Origin: Candidatus Eisenbacteria bacterium
Lineage (GTDB): Bacteria > Desulfobacterota > Binatia > DP-6
Direction of reading: 5' to 3'
DNA length: 64,000 nt
NCBI GenBank assembly: GCA_035577985.1
Contig: DATJZY010000188.1
Span: 1 to 64,000 of the forward strand
The notes under the pieces were generated by a model. It saw only the letters and a list, made by a program, of their open reading frames with translations, did no database searches and had not been told where the DNA came from. Of this stretch, positions 13,487-39,294 are shown one piece after another (the stretch's first letter is position 1; every line of letters begins with the position of its first letter). A program made the position numbers and the translations under genes.

Positions 13487-13495
13487 GCTAGGAGG

Positions 13496-13618
13496 CCGAC
13501 CCAAGACTGCGTCTTGGGTCGGTACCGAGTACCGCGGCCTCGTGGAACGCGCGACCGGCATACCGCGAACGCCCCATGTCTCCCGTCCTCCCCGACCCAA
13601 GACACAGTCTTGGGTCGG
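13496..13618. repeat. Paired-palindrome element, short copy
   Basis: Two perfect 12-bp palindromes with 3-nt loops bound this 123-bp element. The first has CCGACCCAAGAC at 13496-13507, loop TGC and its complement at 13511-13522. The second has CCGACCCAAGAC at 13592-13603, loop ACA and its complement at 13607-13618. Between them is ACGCGCGACCGGCAT at 13547-13561, followed by ACCGCG. The same arms and the same inner motif recur at 33649-33905. It fills almost the whole gap between ctpA and xseA. No transposase or target-site duplication is evident. It could act as a transcript-stabilising, processing or attenuating hairpin pair. Confidence 0.85.
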
Positions 13619-13623
13619 CGTTC

Positions 13624-14988
13624 CTAGTCTTCGCGCTTCGCGACGAAGGTCTTGAAGACCTGCCAGCTCTTCAAGAGCTCGAGCGCGCGATCGAGCTGCG
13701 GATCGGACCCGAGCTCGCCTTCCTTCACGCCGGGCGCCGGTGCGTCGGACGCGTCCGGCTCGGCCTCCTCGCCGTCGGCCGGGACCTTCACGCCCTGCGG
13801 GTGCTCCAGATGACGCGGCAGGTTCGCCTCGCGCAGCGACGTCACCGACGACGAGTTGTTGTCGCCCTTCGCGACCTTCGTGCCCTGGTCCATGGTGATG
13901 TCGGGGACAATGCCGGTCGCCTGGATGGAGCGGCCGTTCGGCGTGTAGTAGCGCGCCGTCGTCAGACGCAGGGCGGAGCTCTCGTCCATCGGCAGGATGG
14001 TCTGCACCGATCCCTTGCCGAACGTCGTCGTGCCGAGCACGAGCGCGCGCTTGTGGTCCTGCAGGGCGCCTGCGACGATCTCGGAGGCGCTCGCGCTGCC
14101 GCCGTTCACCAGCACGACCATCGGGAAGTCCGACCACGTGCTCGGCTTGTGTGCGAAGTACTTCTGCTTCTGGTTCTCGAGGCGGCCGTCGGTGTAGACG
14201 ATGAGCCCCGCGTCGAGGAACATGTCGCTCACCTTCACGGCCTGCGTGAGGAGCCCGCCGGGGTTGTTGCGCAGATCGAGCACCACGCCCTGCAACCCGC
14301 CCGACTCCTTGTCGAGCTGGCGGACGGCGTGCTCGAGGTCGTCGTCGGTCCGCTCCTGGAACTGCGTCAGGCGGAGGTACGCGTAGCCCTTCTCGAGCAT
14401 CTTGTACTTGACGCTCTGGATCTTGATGACCTCGCGCGTGAGCGTGACGTCGAAGACCTGCGTCGGGTTGTCGCGCTTGATCGTCAGGCGGACCTTCGTG
14501 TCCTTGGGGCCGCGCATGTGCTTCACGGCCTCGACCAGCGACATGTCCTTCGTGAACTCGCCGTCGATCTTGAGGATGACGTCGCCCGACTTGATCCCGG
14601 CGCGGTAGGCGGGCGTGTCCTCGATCGGCGCCACGACCGTGAGCATGCCGCTCTTGTTCGTGATCTCGATGCCGAGCCCGCCGAAGCTGCCCTTCGTCTC
14701 GACCTGTAGCTCCTTGTAGAGCTCGGGCGTGAGATACGCGCTGTGCGGATCGAGCGAGGTGAGCATGCCGTTGATGGCCCCCTCGATCAGCTGCTTGGTC
14801 GGCACTTCGTCGACGTAGTTCTTCTGGATGATCGCGAGGATGTTCGTGAACGTCTCGAGGCCTTCGTACGACTCCTTCGAGGCGGCTCCGACCTTGCGGA
14901 CTTCCAGGAATTCCGACGCGGCGACACCGGCGAGGAACGCCAGGACGATCGCCACTCCCACACCGGTTCGTCGCTTGCGCATCAACAT
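13624..14988 (-). CDS. ctpA: C-terminal processing peptidase (S41 family)
   Basis: This 454-residue periplasmic serine protease has an N-terminal membrane anchor (about residues 8-25) and a PDZ domain (about 100-185, GLGIEI...AGIKSGDVILKIDGE). The S41 core follows, with catalytic Ser300 in GGSASASEIVAGA and Lys325 in TFGKGSVQT. The C-terminal tail is acidic and ends in a helical segment. The family trims C-termini of periplasmic and photosystem proteins or degrades tagged proteins. It is downstream of a tlpA-like gene on the same strand, and its stop lies 5 nt from the hairpin of the repeat element. ATG at 14988 is used; an ATG two codons later is possible. Confidence 0.92.
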   Translation of the reverse strand: MLMRKRRTGVGVAIVLAFLAGVAASEFLEVRKVGAASKESYEGLETFTNILAIIQKNYVDEVPTKQLIEGAINGMLTSLDPHSAYLTPELYKELQVETKGSFGGLGIEITNKSGMLTVVAPIEDTPAYRAGIKSGDVILKIDGEFTKDMSLVEAVKHMRGPKDTKVRLTIKRDNPTQVFDVTLTREVIKIQSVKYKMLEKGYAYLRLTQFQERTDDDLEHAVRQLDKESGGLQGVVLDLRNNPGGLLTQAVKVSDMFLDAGLIVYTDGRLENQKQKYFAHKPSTWSDFPMVVLVNGGSASASEIVAGALQDHKRALVLGTTTFGKGSVQTILPMDESSALRLTTARYYTPNGRSIQATGIVPDITMDQGTKVAKGDNNSSSVTSLREANLPRHLEHPQGVKVPADGEEAEPDASDAPAPGVKEGELGSDPQLDRALELLKSWQVFKTFVAKRED

Positions 14989-30163: not shown

Positions 30164-31149
30164 GAGCCGCCCTCCTGCTCGTCCTCGCGCTCGGCACGAC
30201 CGGCGCCGGGTGGCTCGATCCGCACGCGACGGCGCGCCAGGCGTCCAAGCTCTATGCCGACGGGAAGTTCGACGACGCGGTCGCCAAGTACAACGAGGCG
30301 CTGGTCGACGACCCGGACTCGGCGCTGCTTCATTTGAACTTGGGCGCCGCCGCCTATCGGCAGGGCAAGTTCGACGACGCGATCAACGCGCTCGGCCAGG
30401 TGCCGTCGTCGGACACCGAGCCGGCGCGGACGGCGCGCGCCGCCTACGACACGGGCAATGCGAAGTACCGGCTCGGCGCCGCGGCGGAGACGTCGGACCC
30501 GAAGACGGCGCTCGAGCGCTGGGCCGAGGCGCTGGTCGCGTACCGGCGCGCCATGGGGGCCGATCCCGCCGACGAGGACGCGAAGTTCAACCACGAGTTC
30601 GTCGAAAAGAAGATCGCCGACCTCAAGAAGAAGCTCGAGGAGCAGCAGAAGAACAAGGACCAGCAGCAGCAACAGGATCAGAAGGACCAGAAGCAGCAGC
30701 AGGGTGAGGATCAGCAACAGCAGCAGCAACAGGCTCAGGATCAGCAGCAACAGCAGCAACGACAACACGACCAGCAGCAAGAGGAGCAGGCCGACAAAGG
30801 GCAGGACCAACAGCAGCAGCAGGATCAGCAGGACCAACGGCAGCCGGGCGAGCAGAAGGAGAAGGAACAGAAGCAGAAGGAGCAGGAGCAGGCGCAGGGC
30901 GGCGACGACCAGGAGAAGCCGGGCGACCAGAAGCCGCAGCAGGCCCAAGGCGAACCCGGCGAGCCGCAGGGCGACCAGCGCCAGGCGCAGGGCGGTGGCG
31001 CCACGGCCGGGGGCGAGCCGACGAAGGAGATGTCGCCGCACGAGGCCGAGGCGCTGCTCGACGCGCAGCGCGACCAGGAGGTCCGCCCCGACGAGATCGT
31101 GCAGCAGCTCCAGGGGGCCGGCGTCGCCGAGCCACGGGAGGATTGGTGA
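30160..31149 (+). CDS. BatC-like TPR protein with long Gln-rich tail
   Basis: This 329-residue protein has a short signal segment and about three TPR-like units (residues about 22-145: ASKLYADGKFDDAVAKYNEAL, AAYRQGKFDDAI, ALVAYRRAMGADPADEDAKFNHEF). A roughly 160-residue Gln/Lys/Glu/Asp run follows, coded largely by CAG/CAA repeats (about 30640-30990), with a short folded C-terminus (SPHEAEALLDAQRDQEVRPDEI). This matches BatC, whose linker is often Gln-rich. The repetitive DNA could vary in length between strains. Confidence 0.85.
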   Translation: MRAALLLVLALGTTGAGWLDPHATARQASKLYADGKFDDAVAKYNEALVDDPDSALLHLNLGAAAYRQGKFDDAINALGQVPSSDTEPARTARAAYDTGNAKYRLGAAAETSDPKTALERWAEALVAYRRAMGADPADEDAKFNHEFVEKKIADLKKKLEEQQKNKDQQQQQDQKDQKQQQGEDQQQQQQQAQDQQQQQQRQHDQQQEEQADKGQDQQQQQDQQDQRQPGEQKEKEQKQKEQEQAQGGDDQEKPGDQKPQQAQGEPGEPQGDQRQAQGGGATAGGEPTKEMSPHEAEALLDAQRDQEVRPDEIVQQLQGAGVAEPREDW

Positions 31150-33647
31150 GAGCCGTTCTCGTCGTCGTGACGCTGCTCACGCTGCGCGGGCTGGCGCCCG
31201 CCGAGATCCGCGTGACCGCCACCATCGACCCGGCGAAGCTCGCGGTCGGAGAGTCGGCCGACCTCGCCGTCGTGATCGACGGCACGCAGAGCGCGCCCGC
31301 CCCGCAGATCGCGAGCACCGAGGGCCTGCAGATCCGGGCGGTCGGCCCGTCCTCGAACGTCACGATCGTGAACGGCCGCGTGACGGCGTCGGTCACACAT
31401 CACTTCACGGTGGTGGCCTCGAAGCCGGGCCGCTATACGATCGGTCCGATCGGCGTCGACGTCGACGGCAAGCACTACGATGCCCCGGCGGTGACGCTCG
31501 AGGCGCTCGCCGCCGGCGCGCGATCGGCCGACGGCAGCCCGAGCCGCAACGACCAGCTCGAGCTGTCGTTGTCGCTGCCGCGCACCGAGGTCTACCTCCA
31601 CGAGCGCATCCCGCTCGGCTTGAAGCTCCTGGTGGGCGCCGTGCGCATCGGCGATCTCCAGTACCCGGCGGTTCCCGGCGACGGCTTCGCGCTCGAGAAG
31701 TTTCCCGAGCCGACGCAGCGCCGGGAGGACACGCCGAACGGGCCGCGGCAGGTCGTCGACTTCAAGACGACGCTGACGCCGCTCAAGACCGGATCGCTGA
31801 CCGTCGGGCCGGCGACCATGAACATGAGCGTCGTCGTCCAGGGACGGCGGCGCGGGCCGTTCTTCGGCGGCTTTTTCGGCGACGAGAGCCGCCCGACGCA
31901 GCTCCAGTCGCAGCCGATCACGCTCATGGTCCTGCCCCTTCCGAGCGAGGGAAGGCCGCCCGATTTCGGCGGCGCGGTCGGCCACTTCACGTTCGAGGTG
32001 ACGGCGGCGCCGGCCGAGGTCACGGCAGGCGATCCGGTGACCGTCCACAGCGTCGTGCGCGGCGACGGCGCGCTCGACGGAATCGCCCCGCCGACGATCG
32101 CCGCCGGCGACGGCTTCCGCGTCTATCCCGTGCAGACGAGCCAGCCCTCCGACCGCAACGACGAGCGGACGTTCGAGCAGGTCGTGATCCCGCTGCGCGA
32201 GGGTCCCTTCCGCCTGCCGACGCTCCGCTTCAGCTACTTCGATCCGACGAGCCGCACGTACCGGACGATCGCGCCGAGCCCGATCACCCTCACGATCCGC
32301 CCGTCGGCGCAGGCGAAGGCGACGCCCCAGATCGTCGGCGCCGTGCCGGCGCCGGCGCCCGCTCCGCAGCGCACCGAAACGCTCGGGCGCGACATCGTCT
32401 TCATCAAGGATGCGCCGGGGACGTTGCGGCCGGTCGGAGCGCGTCTGTATCGAAGCCCCGTCTTCTGGCTGCTGCAGCTCGTGCCCGTGCTCGTGTGGGC
32501 CGTCGCCACCGCCTACGACCGTCGTCGCCGGCGGCTCGCGACCGACTCGCAGTACGCGCGCTACACGCGCGCAGGACGCGAGGCGCGCGCGGCGCTCGCC
32601 CGCGCGCGCCTCGTCCTCGGGCGCGGTGACACCGCCCGCTGCCACGATCAGGTCGCCGCGGCCGTGCGCGACTACCTCGCCGCCAAGCTGGCGCTCCCAC
32701 CGGGGAGCGTGCTCGAAGCCGCGCCCGACCGTCTGCGCGCGAACGGCGCCGGCGACGCGGTGGCAACGCAGGTGACGGCCTTCTTCACCGCCTGCGAAGC
32801 CGCGCGCTTCGCGCCACGCGCGACCTCGGCCAGCGAGCTCGAGACGACGCTCGCGCAGGCGGACGCGATCGTGCGCGCGCTCGAGCGCTCGCGCCGCCTC
32901 GGCCGGGCCGCCGCCCTCGCGCTCGTCGCCCTCGCCGCTGGATCGGTCGCCGCGGCCCCCGAGAGCCCGAGCGCCCTCTTCTATCGGGCGAGCGCGCTCT
33001 ACGGCGAGGAGAAGTACGCCGAGGCCGCGGCGACCTATGAGAAGGTCCTCGCGGCGGGTGTGGAGAGCGCGCCCGTGTACTTCGATCTCGGCAACGCCTG
33101 GTTCAAGACCGGCGACGTCGGACGCGCGGTCCTCGCCTACGAGCGCGCGCTCCGCCTCGCGCCCGGCGACCCCGATCTGGCGGCGAACGTCGCTTACGCA
33201 CGCGAGCTCGCGAGCGACGTCGCCGACGAGCCCATCGCCGCCCGATTGCTCGTCCCGCTCGCGTCGCGCGCGAGCACGGACACGCTGCTCCTCGCAGCCG
33301 CCGCGGCGTGGTCGGTCCTGTGGCTCCTGCTCGCGGTCGGACCGCTGCTCCCCGGCTTCGCGCGCGCGCCGCGATTCCTCGTGGCCGCGGCGACGATCGT
33401 GCTGGGCGTGAGCGCGACGTCGGCGGGCTATCGGTGGTGGACCATCGACCACCCGACGTATGCCGTGGTGGTCGCAGTCGCCGACGCCACCGTGCGCTAC
33501 GAGCCGAACGCGAACGCCAAGCCGCACTTCGCCGCCAAGCCCGGCACGGTGCTGCGCGTCGACGGCGAGCAGAAGGGATGGTCGCAGGTCGTCGGCCGCG
33601 ACCGCCGCCGCGGCTGGATCGAGTCGGCCGCGCTGGGAGTCATTTAG
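31146..33647 (+). CDS. BatD-BatE fusion protein
   Basis: This 833-residue protein joins two normally separate Bat proteins. Residues 1-20 are a signal peptide. About 20-430 are the BatD-type repeated beta-sandwich domains (AEIRVTATIDPAKLAVGESADL; PAEVTAGDPVTVHSVVRGDG). A transmembrane helix (about 440-458) and a cytoplasmic helical segment follow. From about residue 605 a second hydrophobic, signal-like helix begins. Then come BatE-type TPR units (ALYGEEKYAEAAATYEKVLAAG...YFDLGNAWFKTGDVGRAVLAYERAL), two helices (about 715-770) and an SH3-like end (VLRVDGEQKGWSQVVGRDRRRGWI). GTG at 31146 overlaps the preceding stop (GTGA). It closes the operon. Confidence 0.87.
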   Translation: MRAVLVVVTLLTLRGLAPAEIRVTATIDPAKLAVGESADLAVVIDGTQSAPAPQIASTEGLQIRAVGPSSNVTIVNGRVTASVTHHFTVVASKPGRYTIGPIGVDVDGKHYDAPAVTLEALAAGARSADGSPSRNDQLELSLSLPRTEVYLHERIPLGLKLLVGAVRIGDLQYPAVPGDGFALEKFPEPTQRREDTPNGPRQVVDFKTTLTPLKTGSLTVGPATMNMSVVVQGRRRGPFFGGFFGDESRPTQLQSQPITLMVLPLPSEGRPPDFGGAVGHFTFEVTAAPAEVTAGDPVTVHSVVRGDGALDGIAPPTIAAGDGFRVYPVQTSQPSDRNDERTFEQVVIPLREGPFRLPTLRFSYFDPTSRTYRTIAPSPITLTIRPSAQAKATPQIVGAVPAPAPAPQRTETLGRDIVFIKDAPGTLRPVGARLYRSPVFWLLQLVPVLVWAVATAYDRRRRRLATDSQYARYTRAGREARAALARARLVLGRGDTARCHDQVAAAVRDYLAAKLALPPGSVLEAAPDRLRANGAGDAVATQVTAFFTACEAARFAPRATSASELETTLAQADAIVRALERSRRLGRAAALALVALAAGSVAAAPESPSALFYRASALYGEEKYAEAAATYEKVLAAGVESAPVYFDLGNAWFKTGDVGRAVLAYERALRLAPGDPDLAANVAYARELASDVADEPIAARLLVPLASRASTDTLLLAAAAAWSVLWLLLAVGPLLPGFARAPRFLVAAATIVLGVSATSAGYRWWTIDHPTYAVVVAVADATVRYEPNANAKPHFAAKPGTVLRVDGEQKGWSQVVGRDRRRGWIESAALGVI

Positions 33648-33648
33648 C

Positions 33649-33905
33649 TCCGAGCCAAGACTACGTCTTGGCTCGGACTAGATCCGAGTTTGTCGCGGTA
33701 GTGGCACGCGCGACCGGCATGCCGCGGCCAGCAAAGCTGGCGCGGCATAGCTGGTACGCACGATGCTCTTCACCCGACCACGGGCATTCGCCGAGCCGCT
33801 GTGCATGAACCGAATCTCCCCGATCGAGTCTGGCGCGCGTGCCCGCGCGTGTACGACCGCCACACGCTCGCGTTCCCCCCGACCCAAGACGAAGTCTTGG
33901 GTCGG
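33649..33905. repeat. Paired-palindrome element, long copy
   Basis: This 257-bp element is bounded by two perfect palindromes with 3-nt loops. The first has TCCGAGCCAAGAC at 33649-33661, loop TAC and its complement at 33665-33677. The second has CCGACCCAAGAC at 33879-33890, loop GAA and its complement at 33894-33905. Inside, ACGCGCGACCGGCAT at 33706-33720 is shared with the copy at 13496-13618. A third hairpin (33719-33748, loop AAA, one bulged G) lies next to it. In the first palindrome both arms carry G/C swaps (CGAGCC and GGCTCG against CGACCC and GGGTCG), so pairing is preserved. It fills the space between two convergent genes and begins one base after the BatD-BatE stop. Confidence 0.85.
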
Positions 33906-33915
33906 ACTATTCGGA

Positions 33916-35079
33916 CTATAGGGAGCGGAGGAACGCGAGCAGCCGCGATCGCTGGAAGCTCGAGAGCCGGGCGTACTGGTCGCGAGCGCGGCGCCCCTGA
34001 CCGTCGTGCGCGAGGATCGCGTCAGGGATCGTGGTCGCGGTACCGTCGTGCAGGTACGTCGTGAGGAGGCGCAGACCCCAGAGTGGCGCGGTGCGCATCT
34101 CGCGTCCGCTCGCCAGGCCTTGCTCGATGCCGTCGCCCAGGCTGCCCATGTCGTGGAGCAGGAAGTCCGAGAACGGCTGGAAGGTGCGGCGGCTCAAGGC
34201 CGCGATGTCGCTCGTCCCGGTCGTGAGCGTCCGGACGTGACAGCTCGCGCAGCCGATGCGATCGAAGAGCACGCTGCCGGCGAGCACCTGGCGCGTGATG
34301 GGCCCGCGCGGTGGCGCGCCGAGCATCGTCATGAAGTCGTGGAAGAGCTGCACGTCCTCACCGTCATCCTCGGGGTCTGGAACGGGATCGCAGGCCAGCA
34401 GCGTGCAGTCGCCCTGCGGACAGTTCTCGGTCGGGAAGAGCGGGCTCGTGATCCCCATCTCGTTCAGATACGCGTCGCCCGAGAAGTGCATCAGGTTCGG
34501 CACCTGGCTCTTCCAGCCGAACTTGCCGACCCTCGTCTCGCCCGTGACCGCGTCGGTCACCATGTTCGCCCGACCGGCGGTCGAGGGCGATCGCCGGGCC
34601 TGCGAGCGCGCCATGGCGCGGAACGTCGAGTCGGGCACCGCGTCGACGAGGCCCAGGCCGAAGAGCGGCGTCGTGCGCCGGCCGGCGCTCACCGTGGCCG
34701 TGCCCGGCACGACCTCGCCCACGAAGTTGCACGCCCCCTGTTCGCCGATGCCCTGGTTCTGGATGAGCGACCCGCCGAGGTTGGCGAGCGGGTCGAAGAC
34801 GCCGCCCACCACCGCGCCGAAGCGCGTCTCGACGAGCGTGCTGCCACCGCCGGTCGCGCCGACGTTGTGGCAGGTCGCGCACCCGTCACCGTTGAAGACG
34901 GGACCGAGCCCGTCGCCCACGTCCTCGATCTCCTCGAAGACTTCGCGACCGGCCTCGAAAGTCTGGACCTGCTCGGGTGTGAGGCCGCGCACCGGATCGC
35001 CGATCTCACCCGACGCCGTCGTTGCCGTCACCACCACCAACCCCAAAGCCCCCAGCAGACAAGAACGTCGTGTGCGCAT
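33916..35079 (-). CDS. Di-haem oxidoreductase (peroxidase-like, DHOR family)
   Basis: This 387-residue periplasmic protein has a signal peptide (about 1-24) and two haem c sites, CATCH (in FNGDGCATCHNVGATGGGS) and CASCH (in FDRIGCASCHVRTL). The DHOR-type motif RTTPLFGLGLVDAVPD and its second-half echo RTAPLWGLRLLTTYLHDG are also present. The family is related to di-haem cytochrome c peroxidases, with few members characterised. ATG at 35079 has an excellent GGAGGTGA site 6 nt upstream. No electron-transfer partner is adjacent. Confidence 0.88.
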   Translation of the reverse strand: MRTRRSCLLGALGLVVVTATTASGEIGDPVRGLTPEQVQTFEAGREVFEEIEDVGDGLGPVFNGDGCATCHNVGATGGGSTLVETRFGAVVGGVFDPLANLGGSLIQNQGIGEQGACNFVGEVVPGTATVSAGRRTTPLFGLGLVDAVPDSTFRAMARSQARRSPSTAGRANMVTDAVTGETRVGKFGWKSQVPNLMHFSGDAYLNEMGITSPLFPTENCPQGDCTLLACDPVPDPEDDGEDVQLFHDFMTMLGAPPRGPITRQVLAGSVLFDRIGCASCHVRTLTTGTSDIAALSRRTFQPFSDFLLHDMGSLGDGIEQGLASGREMRTAPLWGLRLLTTYLHDGTATTIPDAILAHDGQGRRARDQYARLSSFQRSRLLAFLRSL

Positions 35080-35403
35080 GGCTCTCACCTCCCCCGCGGC
35101 GAAACAGTGCAACGCACGTGCCCCGGCCTGCGGCGCTGTGCGCCGGAGCACGGCTCCGCAACGCCGCGCGAGCACCGGCGGGCGTTCGACGCGCCGCCTT
35201 GGCGCCCGCCGTGCGCGCCGCGCCTGAGCATCGCCGACCGGGTGCAGCGGCGCCCGCAGAAGGGCGCCGCACGTCGCGCACGGGAATGCACGCGCGTTCG
35301 GTCCGCACGGCGACGAACCGACGCGGCGGGCGAAGCGCGCGCGGTGCGGATGCTGCGGACCCCGCGTTGCCGGCCGCGCCCGCGGCGGAGTACAGGCGCC
35401 CGT
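35080..35403. other. Divergent intergenic region, no clear signal
   Basis: These 324 bases are very G+C-rich and separate the di-haem protein from the beta-helix protein. Apart from the ribosome-binding site of the leftward gene and a weak GGAGC-ACG-GCTCC hairpin near 35147-35159, I see no promoter, operator or small gene I can support. Confidence 0.4.
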
Positions 35404-36801
35404 ATGGAGGGCTCGGTTGCGCGCCTGGTTGCGCACCTCGTCCGCGGGGCGGGGGGCGCAGCCACGCGCGCAATCCTTGCGGCGCTACTCTGCGTCGGCG
35501 GGGTCGCGCACGCCACGACCTTCTACGTGCGCCAGAGCATGGGCGACGACGCCGCCGACGGTCGCTCGCCGTCGACGGCCTGGCGCCACGTCTCGAAGCT
35601 GTCGAACGCCATGCAGGCGGGGGACACGGCGTACGTCGGCCCGGGACTCTATCGCGAGCAGATCACGGTCGAGCACGACGGACGTCCCGATGCCGCGATC
35701 ACCTTCGTCGCCGACACGAGCGGCCGCCACACGGGCGATCCACCCGGCCCGGTCGTGCTCGCCGGCTCCGAGCCGGTCGACGAGACGATCTTTGCGCCGC
35801 TCGGGCCGCCCGGCGTCTTTCGCGCCGCGTTCCCCGACTTCGTCGTGTGGGGCGCCGTCGAGATGGACGGCCCACAGCAGCGCTACGTGCACGCCACGAT
35901 CACCCACGAGTATCTGGTCGAGAAGAAGTCGGCCGTCGACGTGGTGGCGCTGCGCCCGTCGAGCTGGTTCTACGACGAGGCGACGCGCGTGCTCTACCTC
36001 CACACGAGCGACGGCCGGCCGCCGGCGGCGCACGAGCTGGAGCTGATCCGGCGCGGCGACGGCATCTTCGTGCAGGACAAGCACTACGTCACCGTGATCG
36101 GCTTCACGTTCCGGCACATGCAGGACGCCGGCGTCAGCTTCTTCAAGGGGTCGAGCAACGGTCTCGTCTCGCATGTGATCTCGTACGGCAACCGGCAGGG
36201 CGTGCGGATCTACGGCGCCCGCGACGTGACGGTCCACGCCAGCACGCTCTTCCGCAACGAGAACTGCGGCGCGTACTTCGCGGCCGAGTCCACGGGCGGC
36301 GCCGCCATCGACAACGTCGCCTACGAGAACGTGAAGGGCCTGCGCTGGAGCAGCGGCTCCCACCGCGGCCGGGCGGTTCGGAACGTCCTGTTCGACAACC
36401 TCGAGCGCGGCCTGTCGCTCGAGGAGGTCGAGGACGCCGTCGTGATCGGCAATCGGCTCGTGGGCAACCGCGTCTCGCAGCTCTACGTGCTGCAGAGCCA
36501 CTACGTCGGTGACGACAACTGCTTCGCGAACGGTGACGCGACGCAGCTCGTCGCCGACTTCACGCCGTTCGGCGCGAACGATCGGTTCGTCACCCTGTCC
36601 GAGTATCAACGCGCAAAGGGCCAGGATCGCGCGTCGCGCGAGACGGGATGCGGGTCGCTTCCGGCGAAGGTGGACGTCCATGCCCAATCCACGTCAGGCC
36701 CGGTCGCCCTGCCCTTCGTTGACGCTCCGCGTTCAGCAATCGCGGGCGGGCCGACGTCGTCGCGGCTCCGTTCCTCTCGGACGCACGTGCGGCACCAATA
36801 A
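35404..36801 (+). CDS. Secreted right-handed parallel beta-helix protein
   Basis: This 465-residue protein has a signal peptide (about 15-38, ending VAHA). A DUF1565-like start (TFYVRQSMGDDAADGRSPSTAWRH then AMQAGDTAYVGPGLYREQI) leads into beta-helix coils (about 215-400) with repeated short strands such as YVTVIGFTFRHM, GLVSHVISYGNRQGVRIYGA and VRNVLFDNLERGLSLEEVEDAVVIGNRLVGN. Folds of this type bind or cleave polysaccharides; no catalytic set is evident. The Cys count is low, unlike the neighbouring repeat proteins. The open frame extends far upstream, but only ATG at 35404 gives a signal peptide. Confidence 0.82.
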   Translation: MEGSVARLVAHLVRGAGGAATRAILAALLCVGGVAHATTFYVRQSMGDDAADGRSPSTAWRHVSKLSNAMQAGDTAYVGPGLYREQITVEHDGRPDAAITFVADTSGRHTGDPPGPVVLAGSEPVDETIFAPLGPPGVFRAAFPDFVVWGAVEMDGPQQRYVHATITHEYLVEKKSAVDVVALRPSSWFYDEATRVLYLHTSDGRPPAAHELELIRRGDGIFVQDKHYVTVIGFTFRHMQDAGVSFFKGSSNGLVSHVISYGNRQGVRIYGARDVTVHASTLFRNENCGAYFAAESTGGAAIDNVAYENVKGLRWSSGSHRGRAVRNVLFDNLERGLSLEEVEDAVVIGNRLVGNRVSQLYVLQSHYVGDDNCFANGDATQLVADFTPFGANDRFVTLSEYQRAKGQDRASRETGCGSLPAKVDVHAQSTSGPVALPFVDAPRSAIAGGPTSSRLRSSRTHVRHQ

Positions 36802-37101
36802 TTCCCGTAGTTGCGCGGCGACGATGCGGGCCGCATCGCGGAGCGTGGGCGCGATGGGAGAGTACCATCGACGATCGTACCCCTCGCAGTGTGCCGTACA
36901 GTGGGGGGGCGACGCGACGACGCGCGCCACTATCTGGTTCGGCGAGCAGACTATCCCGAAACCTTCAGTTCGCGGGTGGTCTCGTGCGGTTTTTTCTTGA
37001 CAGCGTGGTGCCTTCTGCGGAACTGTCCTAGTCGTCACCAGATCGACCGGGAGAGCAGCGCTTCTTCTTCATCCGAGTTCTCATACCGAGGGGAGGACAA
37101 G
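36802..37101. other. Intergenic region upstream of tandem-repeat protein
   Basis: This 300-base gap is noticeably less G+C-rich toward its right end. A consensus TTGACA at 36997-37002 is preceded by a six-T run, but no good -10 box lies 16-18 nt downstream (GAACTG at 37020). A strong GGGGAGG ribosome-binding site is at 37090-37096. No small gene is supported. Confidence 0.4.
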
Positions 37102-39294
37102 ATGGACCGACCGAGGAAGTTCGGACTCGCCGGAATTGCCCTGGTTGCGATCGCACTCGGCGCCTTGGTCGGGCCGCCCGCAGTCGAGGCCCAATGTCAG
37201 CACGGCGCCAGCATCTTCAAGACCTGCCAGAGCCCCAAGCGGAAGTGCAACGCGGACTCGCAGTGCAACGATCAGATCGAGTGCACCGACGACGTCTGCG
37301 ACCTCTCGCAGAGCAACATCACCAACTGCACCATCAGCCTCGCGAACGCGGACACCTGCGGCGACACCACGAAGATCACCGGGGGCTTCGACATCGAGGA
37401 CCTCGGCGGGGACAACGTGCGAGTTCCGGCGGTCGGCAACCTCCCCGTTTCAGGGGTTTTCGGAAACGCCGTCTGCTGTGCGGGCCCGTCGCTCCCGTGC
37501 TTCGTCGGTCCCGCCGGCTCGCTGTTCGTCGTCCCCAACTCCGCGACCGGTTGCGGGAACCTCCCGCTGCCCGGCGCGGCAACCGCCGGGCAGGTGAACT
37601 TCCTGCAGAACACCTACGTCGTGCAGCCGAACGATCCCGACCCGCTCCCCGATCAGGGGAACGTGACCGGCAACGACCTGTGCAACGCGGGGCTCATGGG
37701 GTGCTCCACAGGACCCATCACCGTGCAGTTCGGCGCGGGTACCGACCTCGTGAGCGGCTGCGTGAATCAGAACAAGCCCGACAGCACGCCGTGCGGTGAC
37801 ACCGATCAGAACGCGTGCACGACGGCGGGGTGCGAGCAGGGATCGTGCGTGCAGACCCACCAGCAGACGATCTGCACGCCCGACACCAACGAGTGCACGA
37901 GCGATCCCGCGTGCAACCCCGCGACCGGCCTGTGCACGCATCCGCCCGTTCCGGACAGCACGCCGTGCGGCGACACCGACACGAACCTGTGCACCACGGC
38001 CGGCTGCGAGCAGGGCCAGTGCGTGCAGACCCACCAGCAGACCGTCTGCACGCCGGACACGAACGAGTGCACGAGCGATCCGGCGTGCAACCCCGCGACC
38101 GGCCTGTGCACGCACCCGCCCGTTCCCGACAGCACGCCCTGCGGCGACACCGATCAGAACGCGTGCACCACGGCCGGCTGCGAGCAGGGCCAGTGCGTGC
38201 AGATCCACCAGCAGACCGTCTGCACGCCCGACACCAACGAGTGCACCCTCGATCCGCCGTGCAACCCGGCGACCGGCCTGTGCACGCACCCGCCCTCGCC
38301 CGACAGCACGCCGTGCACGGACACCGACGCCAACGCGTGCACGGTGGCGGGCTGCGAGATGGGACAGTGCGTGCAATCCCACATCACCGACATCTGCAAT
38401 GTGCCCGATCACTTCAGCTGCTACGAGGTGAAGCCGTTCCTCTTCCACCGCATCCCCGGCGTCACGCTGGTCGACCAGTTCGGCTCGTCGACCGTCAACG
38501 TCGACCGGCCGAACAAGCTCTGTGCGCCGGCCGACAAGAACGACGAGCAGCCCGAAGCGCCGAACGATCCAGACCATCTGACCGCGTTCCGCATCCGCAA
38601 TCCAGCCATCAAACGGCTGAACCAGGTGGTCGTGAACCAGTTCGGCACGATCACGCTCGACGTCATCAAGACCGACCTGCTCTTCGTTCCGACGGCCAAG
38701 ACCCTCGCGGCACCTGCCCCCGCCCCGCCGCTCGATCCGGCCGTCGATCACTTCCAGTGCTACAAGGTGCGGCGATCGAAGGGCACGCCGTCATTCCAGA
38801 AGATCCTCGGCGTGAAGGTCGACGACCAGTTCGGGACCGGCACCGTCGATCTGCTGAAGCCGGCGCAGCTCTGCGCACCGGTCAACAAGAACAACGAGGA
38901 TCCGACCGCTCCGCAGCACCCGGACCACCTGCTCTGCTACAAGGTGAAGGCGCGCGCGCCGTTCACCACCAAGCACGTCTGGCTCGGCAACCAATTCGGC
39001 CCCTTCAACGACCTGGTCCTCACCCGGCGCCAGGAGTTCTGCGTGCCGTCGCTCAAGAACCCGAGCTCGACGACCACGACCTCCACGCCGCCGACCACGA
39101 CGACCTCGACCACCGTCGTGCAGACCACGACGACCAGCACGAGCACCAGCACGTCCACCAGCACGTCCACCACGACGTCGACGGCAGCGAGCACGTCGAC
39201 CACGACCACCAGCTCGTCGACCACGACCTCGACGACCCAGTTCGGGTCGCCGAGCGCAGCCTTCCTCGACCGCGATCCGTTCGCGACCGATTGA
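37102..39294 (+). CDS. Secreted Cys-rich tandem-repeat protein with Ser/Thr tail
   Basis: The 730-residue product has a signal peptide (about 1-31, ending AVEA) and a Cys-rich N-terminal domain (about 32-220). Residues about 227-430 are three complete and one partial copies of a 58-residue unit (DSTPCGDTDQNACTTAGC...CTPDTNECTSDPACNPATGLC). Three copies of a DQFGxxTVDVxxP...LCAPxDKN domain follow (about 434-655). A Ser/Thr-rich low-complexity run (TTTTSTSTSTS, about 660-715) precedes a short end. It has no membrane anchor. Surface or matrix function is inferred from composition. ATG at 37102 follows GGGGAGG. Confidence 0.85.
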   Translation: MDRPRKFGLAGIALVAIALGALVGPPAVEAQCQHGASIFKTCQSPKRKCNADSQCNDQIECTDDVCDLSQSNITNCTISLANADTCGDTTKITGGFDIEDLGGDNVRVPAVGNLPVSGVFGNAVCCAGPSLPCFVGPAGSLFVVPNSATGCGNLPLPGAATAGQVNFLQNTYVVQPNDPDPLPDQGNVTGNDLCNAGLMGCSTGPITVQFGAGTDLVSGCVNQNKPDSTPCGDTDQNACTTAGCEQGSCVQTHQQTICTPDTNECTSDPACNPATGLCTHPPVPDSTPCGDTDTNLCTTAGCEQGQCVQTHQQTVCTPDTNECTSDPACNPATGLCTHPPVPDSTPCGDTDQNACTTAGCEQGQCVQIHQQTVCTPDTNECTLDPPCNPATGLCTHPPSPDSTPCTDTDANACTVAGCEMGQCVQSHITDICNVPDHFSCYEVKPFLFHRIPGVTLVDQFGSSTVNVDRPNKLCAPADKNDEQPEAPNDPDHLTAFRIRNPAIKRLNQVVVNQFGTITLDVIKTDLLFVPTAKTLAAPAPAPPLDPAVDHFQCYKVRRSKGTPSFQKILGVKVDDQFGTGTVDLLKPAQLCAPVNKNNEDPTAPQHPDHLLCYKVKARAPFTTKHVWLGNQFGPFNDLVLTRRQEFCVPSLKNPSSTTTTSTPPTTTTSTTVVQTTTTSTSTSTSTSTSTTTSTAASTSTTTTSSSTTTSTTQFGSPSAAFLDRDPFATD
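37780..38391 (+). repeat. 174-bp in-frame tandem repeat
   Basis: Units begin with GACAGCACGCC at 37780, 37954, 38128 and 38302, an exact 174-bp (58-codon) period. Units 1-3 are nearly identical at the DNA level; the fourth is partial and more diverged. Such conservation suggests recent duplication or gene conversion and predicts copy-number variation. Confidence 0.9.

Follow-up and report, generated by a model that had tools for sequence, protein, structure and literature searches.

A CTAG-bounded, palindromic mobile element of REPIN- or MITE-like architecture in a Binatia genome and its relatives

In this study, we analysed a palindromic repeat lying between two genes in a window of 64,000 nucleotides (the whole stretch of DNA under analysis) from a genome assigned to the Binatia, and we conclude that it is very probably what remains, after partial deletion, of an old copy of a non-autonomous mobile element built like a REPIN or MITE. 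The family to which it belongs is mobile: it inserts at CTAG, leaves CTAG at both ends, and has dispersed in a related genome. As matters stand, the element is best described as non-autonomous and mobile, REPIN- or MITE-like in build, with a tag and an arm structure of its own.

Anatomy of the element and of the window copies

The terminal hairpin, CCRAGAC-TNC-GTCTYGG, has 91 matches across the window's genome, and the reversed pattern, which served as a control, has 0. When 71 stretches around hairpins of this genome were compared with the window copies, the full element emerged as a unit of ~240-400 bp in which two arms of ~120 bp are inverted around a centre that is mostly unalignable between copies. 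Every arm comprises a terminal palindrome and a second hairpin along with a conserved linker (GTGGCACGCGCGACCGGCA), so a complete copy has four hairpins. On the plus strand the loop is TNC in the left palindrome and GNA in the right, and the ends are therefore mirror images. Copies occur as full or short pairs and as solo arms or palindromes; a solo example from a relative forms a perfect palindrome of 40 bp that runs from CTAG to CTAG. The element shows the hallmarks of a MITE, being short, non-coding, multicopy and furnished with terminal inverted repeats, together with a trait of REPINs, namely two inverted palindromes around a less conserved spacer. Copies in the window's own genome are old; their ends are mostly CTAG, and many have drifted. 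One arm in this genome (L097:1798-3085, on G000:C161) has an IS481-family transposase gene inside it (NCBIfam NF033577, 235 bits).

Table 1. Features of the two element copies in the window and of the adjoining genes
Feature	Positions	Strand	Detail
Short copy	13488..13627	.	CTAG (13488-13491), two terminal palindromes, interior mostly deleted, CTAG (13624-13627)
Whole 'long' copy	33643..33911	.	Left arm, non-conserved centre and truncated right arm; arm-profile matches 33643-33772 (+) and 33844-33911 (-)
Left arm, complete	33643..33772	+	Arm profile 113.6 bits, profile positions 4-132
Left terminal palindrome, TAC triloop (TNC class)	33649..33677	+	Perfect inverted repeat, 13-bp arms
Second hairpin of left arm ('third hairpin' of the first-pass annotation), bulged G	33720..33747	+	TGCCGCG-G-CCAGC-AAA-GCTGG-CGCGGCA
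Non-conserved centre, fused directly to truncated right arm	33773..33843	.	No profile match; centres mostly unrelated between copies
Truncated right arm, outer half only, lacking second hairpin	33844..33911	-	Profile positions 5-72, 53.3 bits
Right terminal palindrome, GAA triloop (GNA class)	33879..33905	+	Perfect inverted repeat, 12-bp arms
TAG stop of left gene (BatD/TPR/SH3 protein, 31143-33647 +)	33645..33647	+	Abuts element directly
TAG stop of right, convergent gene (di-haem oxidoreductase, 33916-35436 -)	33916..33918	-	

The outer ends of the 'long' copy have drifted from CTAG, to TTAG on the left and CTAT on the right, and its left palindrome belongs to the TNC class that is represented by 107 palindromes in the window's genome. 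Folded as a single strand, the copy forms two terminal hairpins and a long stem between the arms from which the second hairpin branches, with z scores against dinucleotide shuffles of -7.9 as DNA and -9.2 as RNA. The first-pass annotation had noticed an additional hairpin, which lies at 33720-33747, as absent or truncated in the short copy (13488-13627) and had suggested that the latter is a deletion derivative, and both points hold: the short copy lacks this hairpin and is an internal-deletion form, in which most of both interiors is lost and both terminal palindromes (13496-13522 and 13592-13618) are present, and it probably arose through loss of the interior. The long copy is itself truncated: with 33844-33911 all that is left of its right arm, it has three hairpins rather than the four of a complete element. 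Both window copies are deletion forms.

Mobility at CTAG and position at stop codons

The element family was found in G002-G006, genomes of the same bacterial family, and is absent from G001; of 112 other genomes of the class, three yielded a weak match, no more than one each. G005 carries more than 25 copies, comprising subtype A (n = 6, 97-100% identical) and subtype B (~20 copies, 84-100%), and these are bounded sharply by CTAG on both sides, with unrelated flanks immediately beyond. A syntenic empty site exists in G006, where contig C312 has a single CTAG at the position at which G005:C127 reads CTAG-element-CTAG; this is the one clean case (n = 1), a second G006 candidate falling on Ns and another having a diverged right flank. 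A target-site duplication is present, with one CTAG when the site is empty and CTAG at each end when it is filled. At G005:C92 (L269:1437-1890) a copy interrupts the 3' end of a RAYT-like (transposase-like) reading frame, of which only the last ~37 residues are recognisable upstream of the copy, and when the flanks are joined through one CTAG the frame is restored, with GWRKDGLVGLDERPRS matching the conserved C-terminus of the RAYT-like protein family. Only 3 and 2 of 20 copies carry matching bases next to CTAG at their two ends, which makes CTAG itself the repeated word. Since this word is self-reverse-complementary, insertion of a single strand beside it leaves the same product as a staggered duplication of 4 bp. 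Elsewhere in the same genome (G005:C90, L256:1558-2132), two elements of different subtypes stand head to tail with one common CTAG, as if one element took the other's end as its target.

Many matches to the 17-bp palindrome in other species were considered as possible relatives and rejected, given that outside this genome family only the palindrome, and not the arm, fits the arm profile. The deltaproteobacterial MAGs OFTM107 and CAMYLJ (L173, L178; JAJDAN010000089, JAJDAN010000034) hold many copies of this palindrome without the arm, some of them in tandem at 61-bp spacing, and these are an unrelated or very distant repeat family.

The positions of the copies are closely tied to the ends of genes. 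In the window's genome, 90 of 104 arm ends have the stop of a reading frame of 100 codons or more no further than 24 nt outside the hairpin, mostly at 5-11 nt, compared with 2% of random positions having such a stop at -12 to -5. Seventy of the stops adjoining arm ends are TAG, a codon that the likely genes in the window use in 4 of 22 cases; in the short copy, the CTA at 13624-13626 serves a 674-codon frame on the minus strand as its TAG stop. A simple home-made gene caller placed 42 of 66 elements between convergent genes, an arrangement found for 6 of the window's 47 gene pairs; it was wrong about the gene to the right of the window's long copy (scored ++), so that the count errs low there. 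That copy in fact lies between convergent genes, the BatD-type gene ending at 33647 and the di-haem oxidoreductase gene at 33916. The arms point away from the adjoining gene, and where an arm stands alone it is mostly the one next to a gene's stop. In G005, a gene-like stop is found at one or more ends of 19 of 23 elements, compared with 14 of 57 CTAGs elsewhere in the stretches retrieved (p = 2.5e-6); for stops at both ends the counts are 7 elements versus 2 other CTAGs. The word itself is scarce: the window contains CTAG 9 times where base composition predicts 167, making it ~18-fold rarer than expected. Target choice and the survival of harmless insertions are both compatible with the stop-codon pattern and cannot be separated by it, and some of the pattern could instead stem from selection by the host for a function at 3' ends, as the side kept by solo arms hints. 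As a separate observation on the coding content of the window, positions 36811-39294 (+) hold a frame encoding a long protein whose repeats are rich in cysteine and whose C-terminus is rich in serine/threonine.

Conserved pairing and rival explanations

The exchange of C and G between palindrome arms that was reported at first pass (CGAGCC/GGCTCG versus CGACCC/GGGTCG) does leave pairing intact, and the covariation that it implied across genomic copies was borne out. Among 39 arms from four genomes, 98.9% of cells are paired, compared with 28-41% when partners are slid, a control that somewhat favours the structure given that the arm alignment was built from sequence and the structure was taken from the window copy. 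Two-sided changes affect 9 of 24 pairs and 56 cells, against a shuffled mean of 11.3. Within these arms, both stems of the second hairpin keep their pairing in 98.5-99.6% of cells, with two-sided changes at four pairs. Divergence in subtype B is 3.6% and 6.7% in the arms and 22% in the centre. The covariation pattern shows that the palindrome is maintained, and it is compatible with either DNA or RNA as the molecule that matters. In the 107 palindromes of the window's genome there are 63 two-sided Watson-Crick changes, 11 G-T wobble states and 15 mismatch cells, and the ratio of two-sided to wobble changes gives no special sign of selection at the RNA level. In these tallies each cell stands for a copy and not for an event. 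The earlier proposal of selection on structure therefore stands in part: pairing is conserved across many copies, but since the element is mobile and inserts at CTAG, this can be explained by the needs or by-products of DNA movement or replication.

The alternative that the host selects the repeat as an RNA element at the 3' ends of genes, a bidirectional terminator or mRNA stabiliser whose pairing is kept through transcripts, is one that we consider quite improbable. It would accommodate element ends that abut stops with arms directed away from the gene, very stable folding, arms that are better conserved than centres, and solo arms that mostly keep their stop-codon side, yet the dispersed copies with exact CTAG bounds, the empty site and the copy inside a transposase-like gene are not what it predicts. 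Nor does the locus itself resemble such an element, as positions 33500-34050 contain no intrinsic-terminator pattern (a G+C-rich stem followed by a T run), a promoter scan of the same stretch also gave nothing, and no Rfam family reached its gathering threshold (best match 24.2 bits versus 60). The few wobble states likewise speak against it. An RNA role can be secondary in a mobile element, where it is possible but not needed; on its own it leaves the copies unexplained.

Two further alternatives accept that the element is mobile and name the kind of enzyme that would move it. We found no transposase linked to the element and, among the matches listed, no autonomous copy in which an arm pair surrounds a gene-sized interior; an IS-sized insertion within one arm, considered as a candidate autonomous parent, proved to be an IS481 copy whose junction ends are unlike those of the element. 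A divergent RAYT-like family (Y1_Tnp, HxH motif, ~230 aa) has many copies in the relatives (L335-L354, from G002, G004, G005 and G006). That the element could be a MITE derived from a CTAG-targeting DDE transposon, such as one of IS481 or IS630 type, and thus a deletion derivative of a lost parent, is quite possible if still short of probable. Terminal inverted repeats and a 4-bp direct CTAG suit staggered DDE insertion, the window's genome contains an IS481 transposase, and the IS481-family transposon TnRErm46 targets CTAG, the TAG of its repeat being the stop of the target genes, which are left intact (PMC6794481). TnRErm46, however, duplicates NCTAGN, and the bases adjacent to CTAG seldom match here; the ends of the IS481 copy in the window's genome do not resemble element ends, the IS630-type DDE_3 domain is missing from that genome, and terminal palindromes with nested hairpins are unusual for such MITEs. 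A strict REPIN, moved by RAYT-like tyrosine transposases of the same bacterial family and with CTAG replacing the GTAG of known REPs, seems rather unlikely. The combination of tag and palindrome, the inverted doublet and the free spacer are as in REPINs (PMC3116915, PMC3733652), and the absence of an autonomous copy is what movement in trans predicts. The distribution of RAYT-like proteins is divided on this point: the relatives with the RAYT-like family that are rich in elements are G002, G005 and G006, with 24, 13 and 13 protein matches, respectively, and few matches were found in G001, G003 and G004, but G001 has RAYT-like genes and no element, and the window's genome, which has the most hairpins found, has no RAYT-like or Y1_Tnp gene by profile or protein search. 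Moreover, no element arm lies within ~3 kb on either side of 20 RAYT-like loci of the relatives, so that no cognate RAYT flanked by repeats was seen, the RAYT-like protein scores 35.9 against NCBIfam REP_Tyr_transpos, for which the cut-off is 80, and young copies in G005 bear CTAG as their tag in place of GTAG or CGTC.

Comparison with known systems and a proposed mode of spread

The element shares features with several known systems and coincides with none of those compared. Like REPINs and REP doublets (BIMEs), which are mobilised by RAYTs, it is a high-copy extragenic palindrome with a short tag at one end, forms inverted doublets around a variable spacer, shows compensatory changes and has no coding capacity (PMC3116915, PMC3733652). 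It differs in its tag (CTAG rather than GTAG or CGTC), in arms that reach ~120 bp and include another conserved hairpin where REPs measure 20-40 bp, in ending at stop codons, and in having no linked RAYT in the genomes searched and none at all in the window's genome. The bacterial MITEs NEMIS/Correia, RUP and ERIC (PMC2229807) are likewise small and non-coding, with terminal inverted repeats, target-site duplication and intergenic dispersal, whereas the present element has a 4-bp CTAG in place of TA, terminal palindromes, a G+C-rich sequence and no parental IS that we could find. TnRErm46 differs in being autonomous and 6.9 kb long, with an NCTAGN duplication, other inverted repeats and no palindromic arms (PMC6794481). 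YPAL, or RU-2, of Yersinia is also a small palindromic mobile element with filled and empty sites, and it may affect upstream transcripts, but its duplications span 3-26 bp, its sequence and host are different, and it has no tie to CTAG (PMC2229807).

We tentatively suggest, as a reading that is possible but on balance doubtful in its full form, that the family is a CTAG-tagged, REPIN-like class with long two-hairpin arms, specialised on overlapping convergent stops and moved in trans by an HUH (single-strand) transposase or one still unknown. Apart from this full form, the likely course of spread is simpler. Insertion requires CTAG, a word that is rare in the genome and often carries a TAG stop; where convergent genes overlap at it, a single CTAG would carry the stops of both. 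An insertion that leaves CTAG on both sides would give each gene its own stop and would thus be harmless. Copies at such stop-bearing CTAGs would survive because both genes are left with a stop, and others would be lost. A trans-acting transposase probably recognises the palindromes as cruciforms or as single strands that have folded.

Altogether, this family cautions that compensatory changes resembling selection on RNA can arise at the DNA level in a mobile palindrome. With its young and old copies and its filled and empty sites, it offers material for testing the roles of the hairpins and of the 3'-end position. It also points to a means by which a mobile element may spread at low cost in a dense bacterial genome, through a rare target word that is often a stop codon and is preserved on both sides of the insertion.
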